DNA of 64,000 nt from Pelosinus sp. (GTDB taxonomy: Bacteria > Bacillota > Negativicutes > Propionisporales > Propionisporaceae). Numbering within the stretch: position 1 is the stretch's first letter; every line of letters starts with the position of its first letter. The DNA lies in contig JAJFUN010000017.1 in assembly GCA_021372375.1 (NCBI GenBank), positions 1-64,000 on the forward strand, in the 5' to 3' direction. The notes below the pieces were generated by a model that saw nothing but the letters and a program-made list of their open reading frames with translations, made no database searches and was not told where the DNA came from. Positions 1-63,672 of the stretch are shown here, one piece after another. The translations under genes were made by a program, and so were the position numbers.

Positions 1-1015
1 CCATTAGGATACGCATAAGTTCCGGTACAGACACGGCCGGATGGGTGTCATTAATATGGATACAAACCTTATCGGCTAAGCCGCGAATGGAACGGCGTTT
101 TTTCTTATAGCGGCGAATAATACTCTGAATGCCCGCTGAAACAAAGAAATACTGCTGTTTTAAACGAAGCAGTCTTCCTTCATAAAAGTTATCTTCAGGA
201 TACAATATTTTGGAGATACGTTCTACGGAATGTTTATATTCCACAGCTTTTAAATAATCGCCGCGGTTAAAAGTCGGCAAATCAAATTCGCCTTCAATCG
301 GTTCAGCATTCCACAGTCTAAGGGTATTAACCGTCTTATTGTCATAGCCAATCATCGGCACATCATAAGGCACAGCTAATACTGCTTCATAATTCTGATG
401 CTTTACAATCAAACGGTTATTGTGCGGTTCTACTGATACATCGCCGTAAAAATGAACTTCTACTGCTTTGTCAGGGCGTTTGACTTCCCAGGCATAGCCA
501 TCTTTCAGCCAATTGTCAGGCAGTTCCACCTGATTGTTATTGACAATTTTTTGTTCAAACAAGCCATAACGGTAACGAATACCATTACCATTTACTGGAA
601 GTTTCAAGGCCGCCACGGAATCTAAATAGCAAGCAGCCAGACGTCCTAGCCCGCCATTACCAAGACCTGCATCTGGTTCGTGATTTTCGATTTCCTCCAA
701 ACTTATACCAAGATCCGCCAGCCCCTCTTTACAGGTATCATACAGGCCAATATTAACCAAATTCATACCCAACATTTTACCAAGTAAAAATTCCATAGAA
801 AAATAATATACCTGTTTACGATTCTGCTCAGTATACTGCTTACTTGTAGCAATCCAATTTTCGGCAATACGGTCGCGTACTACAGCAGTTAAGGCCAGGT
901 ATTTATCATTTACACTTGCTTCCTCAACGCCCTTACCAGTCATTGCCTGCAAATTACGAATAAATTGCTCTTTAAACGTTGCTTTTTCTGAATTCTTATT
1001 TTTTAATCTTGCCAT
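1..1015 (-). CDS. glgP: glycogen/starch phosphorylase, N-terminal part (runs off the left edge)
   Basis: Degrades glycogen or maltodextrin by phosphorolysis to glucose-1-phosphate (GT35, PLP-dependent, cytoplasmic). About 338 residues are visible. Reading from an ATG at 1015 behind GGGGGAG, it shows the family signatures YYFSMEFLLG, GLGNGGLGRLAACYLDS, RYRYGLFEQKI, PDNWL and IHINDTHPAV. The catalytic C-terminal half with the PLP lysine lies outside the window. It is a close paralogue of the phosphorylase immediately upstream (1390-3966, same strand), which matches it over this whole stretch. A terminator and about 370 bases separate them, so it probably has its own promoter. Family assignment is firm; completeness cannot be judged. 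Confidence 0.95.
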   Translation of the reverse strand, partial: MARLKNKNSEKATFKEQFIRNLQAMTGKGVEEASVNDKYLALTAVVRDRIAENWIATSKQYTEQNRKQVYYFSMEFLLGKMLGMNLVNIGLYDTCKEGLADLGISLEEIENHEPDAGLGNGGLGRLAACYLDSVAALKLPVNGNGIRYRYGLFEQKIVNNNQVELPDNWLKDGYAWEVKRPDKAVEVHFYGDVSVEPHNNRLIVKHQNYEAVLAVPYDVPMIGYDNKTVNTLRLWNAEPIEGEFDLPTFNRGDYLKAVEYKHSVERISKILYPEDNFYEGRLLRLKQQYFFVSAGIQSIIRRYKKKRRSIRGLADKVCIHINDTHPAVSVPELMRILM

Positions 1016-61817: not shown

Positions 61818-61894
61818 TGGTGACCCCGGCAGGATTCGAACCTGCGGCCTTTTGATTCGTAGTCAAACGCTCTATCCAGCTGGGCTACGGGGCC
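61818..61894 (-). tRNA. tRNA-Arg (anticodon ACG)
   Basis: 77 nt including an encoded CCA. Acceptor GGCCCCG/CGGGGTC (one G-U), D arm AGCCCAGCTGGATAGAGC, anticodon stem TTTGA/TCAAA with loop CTACGAA (anticodon ACG, reading CGU/C/A after inosine modification), T arm GCAGGTTCGAATCCTGC. All cloverleaf parts pair. Confidence 0.98.
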
Positions 61895-61926: not shown

Positions 61927-61955
61927 ATTATATCATATAGATTTTATAAAGTCAA
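61927..61955 (-). promoter_or_regulatory. promoter of tRNA-Arg
   Basis: TTGACT (61950-61955), 17-bp spacer, TATAAT (61927-61932), about 33 bases before the tRNA. Confidence 0.85.
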
Positions 61956-62029
61956 ATAATTAGTTATGGTAATTTACGCAAATTTTTGTGCATAACGCCA
62001 ACTTTATATACCATAATATTACTGGCATG

Positions 62030-62242
62030 TTTTCCACATTTTTATCCACAGGCAAACCCTTTATTTTTCAATAACGTTGCACCTTTTCCACAAAAATTAC
62101 TTTTCATTAAGCAACTTATCCACATTTGCAGCTACTTTGTGGATAGTTTTGTGGATAAACACCTTTAAACCAGTAAATATCATCTGTTTTACCGTTGTGG
62201 ATATCCTATCTAGCCAGATAAGTTATCCACAACGGTAAAACA
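62030..62242. promoter_or_regulatory. DnaA-box cluster with long inverted repeat
   Basis: Perfect TTATCCACA boxes at 62042-62050, 62116-62124, 62150-62158 (reverse) and 62223-62231. One-mismatch boxes at 62030-62038, 62084-62092, 62138-62146 (reverse) and 62196-62204 (reverse). The last two lie in the arms of a 19-bp inverted repeat, TGTTTTACCGTTGTGGATA (62186-62204) / TATCCACAACGGTAAAACA (62224-62242). It lies between the tRNA-Arg promoter and the 3' end of a small gene, with no dnaA or dnaN nearby. Probably a DnaA-binding titration or regulatory region rather than oriC. Confidence 0.75.
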
Positions 62243-62263: not shown

Positions 62264-62560
62264 TTATTCTACCGGACGGCTCCAGTCTACTGACACCCCG
62301 GTTCTCATCCATAAATAAGTCAGCACCGCTTTAAAATCTGCTATTCCATGACTCGCAAGCATCGTCACATGCGCAAACTCTCCGATATTCCCCTTACTTA
62401 TAGGAATAACCTGTTCCTGACTTAAATATTTCTCGACTTCACCGCGTTTACCCGCATGATCCAGCTGCACATTAATGCTGTTATTTGTGGTATTATAACC
62501 AATATACCCATACTGATTTTCATAACGAATACAAATTTTCAAATCTGCTGACTGCTTCAC
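62264..62560 (-). CDS. 98-residue protein of unknown function
   Basis: GTG start at 62560, 8 bases after AGGGGG. Soluble, alpha/beta: LKICIRYENQYGYIGYNTTN + NSINVQLDH, then KYLSQEQVIPISKGNIGEFA and FKAVLTYLWMRTGVSVDWSR. The tryptophan-containing C-terminus is distinctive, but I do not recognise a family. It reads toward the DnaA-box cluster, whose inverted repeat (62186-62242) may serve as its terminator. Divergent from the DUF2600 gene. Confidence 0.7.
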   Translation of the reverse strand: MKQSADLKICIRYENQYGYIGYNTTNNSINVQLDHAGKRGEVEKYLSQEQVIPISKGNIGEFAHVTMLASHGIADFKAVLTYLWMRTGVSVDWSRPVE

Positions 62561-62616: not shown

Positions 62617-63672
62617 ATGTTTAAAATCCTGCAAAGCTGCTATTTAATTACAGTTTTCGTTAGTAAAATTTTCCCCAAAGTAAAATGTGAACTAGCCTAT
62701 TGGCAAAAAAAGGCCCAGCAAGCTGAGCCCGCACTAAAAGAGCAAGCGCTAGCCAGTATAACCGCAAAAAGGTTTCACTGTTTAGGCGGTTCAATATACA
62801 GCTTGTATACAGGTAAGTTCAGCAAAAACGCCGTACGCTTCATCGTTGCTTTACAAACCATCAGTGATTATCTGGATAACTTGTGCGACCGCGCAGGTAT
62901 CGCTGATGAAAAAGCATTTCGCCAATTACATCTAGCTATGACCGATGCCCTTACCCCCTACAAGCCCCTGGAGAATTATTACCTGTATTATCCTTATAAA
63001 CAAGATGGAGGTTACCTTGCGGCGCTGGTAACTACCTGCCAAAAGGAAGCAGCCAAACTCCCTAACTATTTAATTATCCAAAAAGATATCCTGGCGCTGG
63101 CTGGTCTGTATTCTGAGCTGCAAACCTATAAGCACCTTGATCCAGTCACACGCGAAGAAAAAATTAAGTTGTGGACAAGTACTTATTTACCTGTTTATCC
63201 ACAGCTGACTACTTGGGAATTTGCTGCCGCTACAGGCTCGACCCTTGGCCTGTTTGCCTTGTGCGCTGCCGCCAAGAGCACACAGCTTAAGTATGAGCTT
63301 GCCAGCCGTATTGCTGAGGCCTATTTCCCCTGGATTAGTACACTACATATTTTATTGGATTACTACATTGATGAGGTCGAAGACAGCCTGTCAGGCGATC
63401 TCAATTTTGTTTCGTATTATACAGCCAATGAAGACATCCCGCAGCGGTTATCATTTTTTCTGAAAGAGGCCTTTTTCCGTATACAGAGATTGCCGCAAAG
63501 TATCTTTCATTACACCATACTTTGCGGTCTAATCGCGATGTACCTATCTGACCCGAAAGCCCACACCCCGTCAAAAAAAACTGCAACAAACAAAATATTA
63601 AAATCAGCTGGTATATACACTATACTGCTTTACACAATATGCAAAATACTGCGCCAGCAGAAAATACTATAG
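62617..63672 (+). CDS. DUF2600/YtpB-like terpene-synthase-family protein
   Basis: 351 residues, all-helical. It matches the YtpB (tetraprenyl-beta-curcumene synthase) family: LGGSIYSLYTGKFSKNAVRF, the aspartate-rich QTISDYLDNLCDR (D84-D88), a long DGGYLAALVTTCQ, and a second acidic patch LLDYYIDEVEDSLSGDLNFV near residue 250. Members cyclise long isoprenyl diphosphates to make sesquarterpenes linked with spores. ATG 62617 after GGAGG. No prenyl synthase is nearby. Confidence 0.88.
   Translation: MFKILQSCYLITVFVSKIFPKVKCELAYWQKKAQQAEPALKEQALASITAKRFHCLGGSIYSLYTGKFSKNAVRFIVALQTISDYLDNLCDRAGIADEKAFRQLHLAMTDALTPYKPLENYYLYYPYKQDGGYLAALVTTCQKEAAKLPNYLIIQKDILALAGLYSELQTYKHLDPVTREEKIKLWTSTYLPVYPQLTTWEFAAATGSTLGLFALCAAAKSTQLKYELASRIAEAYFPWISTLHILLDYYIDEVEDSLSGDLNFVSYYTANEDIPQRLSFFLKEAFFRIQRLPQSIFHYTILCGLIAMYLSDPKAHTPSKKTATNKILKSAGIYTILLYTICKILRQQKIL

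Follow-up and report, generated by a model that had tools for sequence, protein, structure and literature searches.

The window (the whole 64-kb stretch of a Pelosinus sp. draft genome that was analysed, on contig C100) carried, in minus-strand order, orf98, a cluster of DnaA-box-like sites, a tRNA promoter and tRNA-Arg(ACG) (Table 1). Eight sites with at most one mismatch to TTATCCACA, four of them perfect, lay in both orientations within the 213 bp of positions 62030-62242, an AT-rich segment (34% GC), and all eight were recovered where the preliminary description had placed them; a ninth box, with one mismatch, lay just outside the cluster span. The density was, as had been claimed, far beyond chance (Poisson about 1e-14): the window contained 34 boxes with up to one mismatch vs. 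17.05 in shuffles, and the probability of eight boxes in 213 bp was 2.5e-15 at the shuffle rate and 5.5e-14 at the window's own background. Perfect TTATCCACA occurred 54 times genome-wide (draft of 3.54 Mb, 199 contigs), the cluster's four being the densest group and the three in 228 bp at oriC, beside dnaA on contig C192, the next densest. A smaller trio of boxes, one of them perfect (63195), was present at 63074-63203, inside a DUF2600 gene (62617-63672).

Table 1. Features of the box cluster and its surroundings (window coordinates; + positions are counted in bp from the start of box A).
Feature	Position	Strand	Remarks
tRNA-Arg(ACG)	61818..61894	-	downstream neighbour
sigma-70-type promoter of tRNA-Arg, TTGACT-17-TATAAT	61927..61955	-	outside cluster
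weak box TTATGCACA, one mismatch	61987..61995	-	box closest to tRNA promoter
box TTTTCCACA, one mismatch	62030..62038	+	12-bp tandem with box D
box D, TTATCCACA perfect	62042..62050	+	+108 from A; kept at +107..113 in most families
box TTTTCCACA, one mismatch	62084..62092	+	+66 from A, on 11-bp lattice
core box C, TTATCCACA perfect	62116..62124	+	inverted, 13-bp gap from B; perfect in 38/43 distinct cores
core box B, CTATCCACA one mismatch	62138..62146	-	3-bp gap from A, same direction; imperfect in 36/43 distinct cores
core box A, TTATCCACA perfect	62150..62158	-	core position 0; perfect in 35/43 distinct cores
inverted repeat, 19-bp perfect stem	62185..62242	.	directly after orf98; lineage-specific
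box ATATCCACA, one mismatch	62196..62204	-	within left hairpin arm
box TTATCCACA perfect	62223..62231	+	within right hairpin arm; f14 and f33 also have a box at about -70..-74
orf98, conserved 98-aa protein of unassigned function	62264..62560	-	upstream neighbour

The inverted repeat had the 19-bp perfect stem described previously, within 27-nt arms (62185-62211 and 62216-62242) that were 93% complementary, and folding of the region as DNA gave z = -8.0. Boxes had also been placed in the hairpin arms, which was correct for those at 62196 and 62223, but the arms were not the conserved element; this was the core at 62116-62158. The hairpin was not seen as a conserved element when the cluster loci of relatives were compared and, being lineage-specific, was rejected as the main feature.

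Conservation and core geometry in Negativicutes

A spacing-blind search of the region against 61 genomes recovered the same tRNA in relatives, with a box cluster upstream in 11 fetched loci (the window's included). All 11 shared one core, two boxes in tandem followed by an inverted one (A> N3 B> N13 <C, starts at 0/12/34). Class-wide (251 Negativicutes genomes, up to 3 mismatches), this core was present in 73 genomes, 40 of 91 genera and about 20 families, while the reversed pattern matched a single genome. Conservation in relatives, suggested at the outset as a check, was thus found at the same place and with the same core spacing. Named matches in the public genome scan were Propionispora, Propionispira, Lucifera, Anaerospora, Sporomusa, Pectinatus and Massilibacillus, which assign the window to the Negativicutes.

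Families are designated here by working handles (f1-f46). When the gaps were left free, 40 matches fell outside f11 and f23, of which 23, spread over 15 families, had the 3/13 pair, and no other gap pair occurred in more than two families; f11 and f23, which mostly had other gaps, were excluded from this table, save for one f11 match with 3/13. Boxes A and C were perfect in most of the 43 distinct cores (35 and 38 respectively) and box B in only 7, a contrast to which the search pattern may have contributed, yet B was also imperfect in 9 of the 11 loci from the spacing-blind search. Within families, box columns were 77-90% identical and the remaining DNA 43-55%: selection acts on the boxes.

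The outer boxes and the hairpin differed between genera. In f11, in f22, in most of f15 and in part of f23 the core has disappeared or been rearranged, and the cluster is therefore not essential to the class. Box clusters with other spacings lay beside orf98 in part of f23, in f4, in f7 and in some f15 genomes. Five f11 loci (L181-L185, e.g., L181:2164-2197) carried another conserved DnaA-box cluster, whose core (0/13/25) differs by one base from the 0/14/26 of E. coli DARS. The simplest history we infer is that of an ancestral module of the class with several losses or remodellings.

Further boxes were placed in register with the core. Where box D was not at its most frequent place (Table 1), it was at +97..102 or +87..90, and each shift among +88, +99 and +110 requires an insertion or deletion of its own. 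When a given place was counted only once in each family, inverted boxes from +50 to +150 recurred with a period of 11.0 bp, a signal that none of 5000 random sets equalled; when the +110 place was set aside and the other boxes were collapsed to distinct positions, the phase was the same (p at most 5e-5), p-values being optimistic here in that families are related and were treated as independent. The lattice of about 11 bp corresponds to one helical turn. No phasing was detected for forward boxes (n = 13).

Chromosomal position and DnaA control

The preliminary description had placed the cluster away from dnaA, and dnaA indeed lay on a different contig. In the 13 relatives in which both could be placed, dnaA and the core were 77-409 kb apart, equivalent to 4-23% of the half-chromosome in relatives of known length. 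The cluster was on the rpmH side in most relatives and on the dnaN side in f10 and Propionispora: the distance from dnaA was roughly kept and the arm was not, the position always being an early-replicated one. Absence from relatives together with a location away from any skew feature had been named beforehand as evidence against a function; the cluster was present in relatives, at the above distance from dnaA.

Boxes, geometry and nearness to oriC are direct observations. We consider it probable (roughly 0.6) that they mark an oriC-proximal DnaA-control locus of the Negativicutes, working like E. coli datA or the DnaA-box clusters (DBCs) of B. subtilis, and the locus probably serves as an inbuilt brake or sensor for replication start. 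The strong boxes A and C would be bound by DnaA and the weaker B between them would be bound cooperatively; further DnaA on box D and the other boxes, whole helical turns away, would give one ordered complex on one DNA face. The locus would be copied soon after oriC fires, and its doubling would take up free (probably ATP-bound) DnaA, delaying re-initiation. We infer DnaA occupancy, a preference for ATP-DnaA and an effect on initiation on this basis. Conservation throughout the class, the fixed geometry and a position that is always replicated early support the earlier suggestion of a titration site or replication-linked regulator.

An early-copied DnaA sink, a role put forward for datA and for the clusters of B. 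subtilis (PMC5295017, PMC13220808, PMC5742627), appears to be the most economical reading; initiation in B. subtilis and E. coli is delayed by known DnaA-box loci of this type (PMC13220808, PMC5742627), and in E. coli titration near oriC has been described (PMC12371093). In a limited open-access collection, DnaA-box clusters of Negativicutes were not the subject of any paper. Fixed spacing would be superfluous in a mere sink and hints at a more specific role: helical phasing and a rigid core of strong, weak and strong boxes suggest a defined complex, for which a catalytic role is possible.

The genome's own DnaA retained the box-reading helix (GGRDHTTV), Walker A, sensor 1, the arginine finger and the AID-2 leucine. 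Since the box-reading helix is kept, TTATCCACA should be bound, judging from knowledge of the family. In this assembly (93% complete), YabA was not found and no match to Hda exceeded the cut-off. A second DnaA-like protein (up to 1276 aa; contig C141, L242:4057-7887 (+), also L034) had a long acidic repeat region followed by an AAA+ domain very like that of the genome's own DnaA, and was devoid of the box-binding domain IV and of DnaA_N, a layout that recalls Hda; it did not turn up in the family's other three genomes.

The cluster belongs to the broad DBC/datA-like kind, having several boxes packed into a few hundred bp outside oriC and an oriC-proximal, early position. Six oriC-proximal DBCs are ascribed to B. 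subtilis (Okumura et al. 2012, as reported in PMC5295017 and PMC13220808), with, according to the same accounts, a strong phenotype only on deletion of all six. Likeness to the DBCs, drawn from their description and not from their sequence, lies in a box cluster outside but close to oriC in a bacterium of Gram-positive lineage described as devoid of datA and DARS (PMC13220808), whereas Negativicutes mostly have one locus with one fixed core across the class. E. coli datA is similar in size (about 250 bp), early replication, a neighbouring tRNA gene (glyVXY) and several boxes, but differs in box order and spacing (the boxes at L070 positions 1678, 1745, 1907 and 1919 do not give 0/12/34) and in tRNA transcription, which runs towards datA and away from the cluster in Negativicutes. 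The core search of E. coli genomes gave no match.

The Negativicutes locus occupies one place across the class and has a fixed geometry, with f11, f22, most of f15 and part of f23 serving as natural "deletion" lineages, and DnaA limitation outside Proteobacteria becomes testable through a single 200-bp element. Detailed knowledge of chromosomal DnaA-control loci comes mainly from E. coli.

Alternative explanations

A nucleotide switch like DARS or datA, in which the ordered complex makes DnaA release ADP (DARS) or hydrolyse ATP (datA), is possible, if doubtful. The cores of E. coli DARS1 and DARS2 likewise consist of three boxes, a tandem pair with a 12-bp step and one box that faces it, so that order and orientation agree; rigid spacing and phased extra boxes would suit such a switch, as would, for datA, the position by a tRNA and near oriC, and other control of the ATP/ADP state would be useful given the result for Hda. 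The starts, however, are 0/14/26 in E. coli DARS vs. 0/22/34 in the cluster (read from box C), and the gap between the facing boxes (I-II) is 13 bp in the cluster vs. 5 bp in E. coli. The additional 8 bp fall short of one complete turn, which would alter the head-to-head contact through which the DARS core acts (PMC8682772). The cluster also has extra phased boxes on the far side, unlike DARS, and the reported lack of such loci in B. subtilis argues in the same direction. A true DARS was rejected: order, orientation and the 12-bp tandem step fit, but the gap (N13 vs. N5) does not. IHF and Fis are required by datA and DARS2. A class-wide, geometrically fixed locus of this type, counterpart to DARS/datA with its own spacing, can be proposed only tentatively; if real, it would represent chromosome-encoded control of the ATP/ADP state of DnaA outside Proteobacteria.

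Less likely, and in our view improbable, is a transcription switch, in which bound DnaA would tune tRNA-Arg(ACG) or orf98 to the replication cycle. The orientation of the core relative to tRNA-Arg was constant, at about 140-510 bp upstream, as such a switch might require, but in the loci examined, that of the window among them, the tRNA promoter was separate and near-consensus, and the core lay well upstream of it. The cluster was moreover INDEPENDENCE from its neighbours, being kept where the tRNA or orf98 was gone: most f24 genomes (Sporomusa and relatives) had orf98 and the cluster without a nearby tRNA, some other families likewise had the cluster with no tRNA close by, and f6 retained cluster and tRNA with no orf98 match there. 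The reverse also occurred: in f22, in most f15 loci and in part of f23 the cluster was absent and orf98 lay 33-156 bp from tRNA-Arg. The cluster is therefore a separate module, independent of the neighbouring genes, and a tRNA promoter element is disfavoured; a tRNA does adjoin it, as first described, as a neighbour and not a necessary part.

The gene orf98 was present in one copy in 211 of the 251 Negativicutes genomes, with invariant residues G, W, V and WS and a C-terminal DWSRP, and had no match in Pfam or NCBIfam. It was used as the anchor for loci since it does not depend on the boxes; among 40 orf98-anchored loci in f11, f15, f22 and f23, not one carried three or more boxes in the 600 bp that follow downstream.

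A second or displaced replication origin, raised earlier as an "unusual origin", is very unlikely. The dense strong and weak boxes and AT-richness are those expected of it, clustered strong and weak boxes being a feature of bacterial oriC, and the 12-bp tandem spacing recurs within this genome's own oriC (L035). The cluster, however, is not at dnaA, which has its own oriC-like box group elsewhere. Skew in the window's contig was negative on either side of the cluster, with no switch at it, and in the complete 5.1-Mb genome G008 the sign changed in the 20-kb sample holding dnaA, 294 kb from the cluster; the cluster is therefore not an origin, and this candidate was rejected on skew and dnaA position.

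A run of boxes that arose by chance or is selectively neutral, with which the variation of outer boxes and hairpin between genera would agree, is hardly conceivable at the Poisson probability given above, and was already excluded by the same place and core spacing in about 20 families and by boxes far more conserved than their spacers.

Core and box groups elsewhere

The phylum-wide core search matched 15 of 399 genomes, the new matches being without a nearby tRNA and one of them beside dnaA; the core is therefore rare outside Negativicutes. Matches in Trueperaceae, Saprospiraceae, Lachnospiraceae and others were also without a nearby tRNA, some of them beside dnaA. In f46, a family outside the class, all eight matches (L152-L159) carried the three-box core at 0/12/34; its neighbours in L154 and L159 were genes for an aminotransferase and a small coiled-coil-like protein and, on the opposite side, a HypF-like gene, and it was not near dnaA or a tRNA.

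Two further observations were made in the Pelosinus genome. A second box group, at C154:57235-57255 (L037:1736-1800 and 1980-2040), consisted of two degenerate copies, similar to each other, immediately upstream of a gene called by eye as encoding a putative secreted HtrA-type protease. Perfect TTATCCACA recurred every 6-7.5 kb or so on one strand of contigs C47 (24590, 32100, 39459, 46187) and C6 (6403, 12298, 18252), as if in repeated genes.
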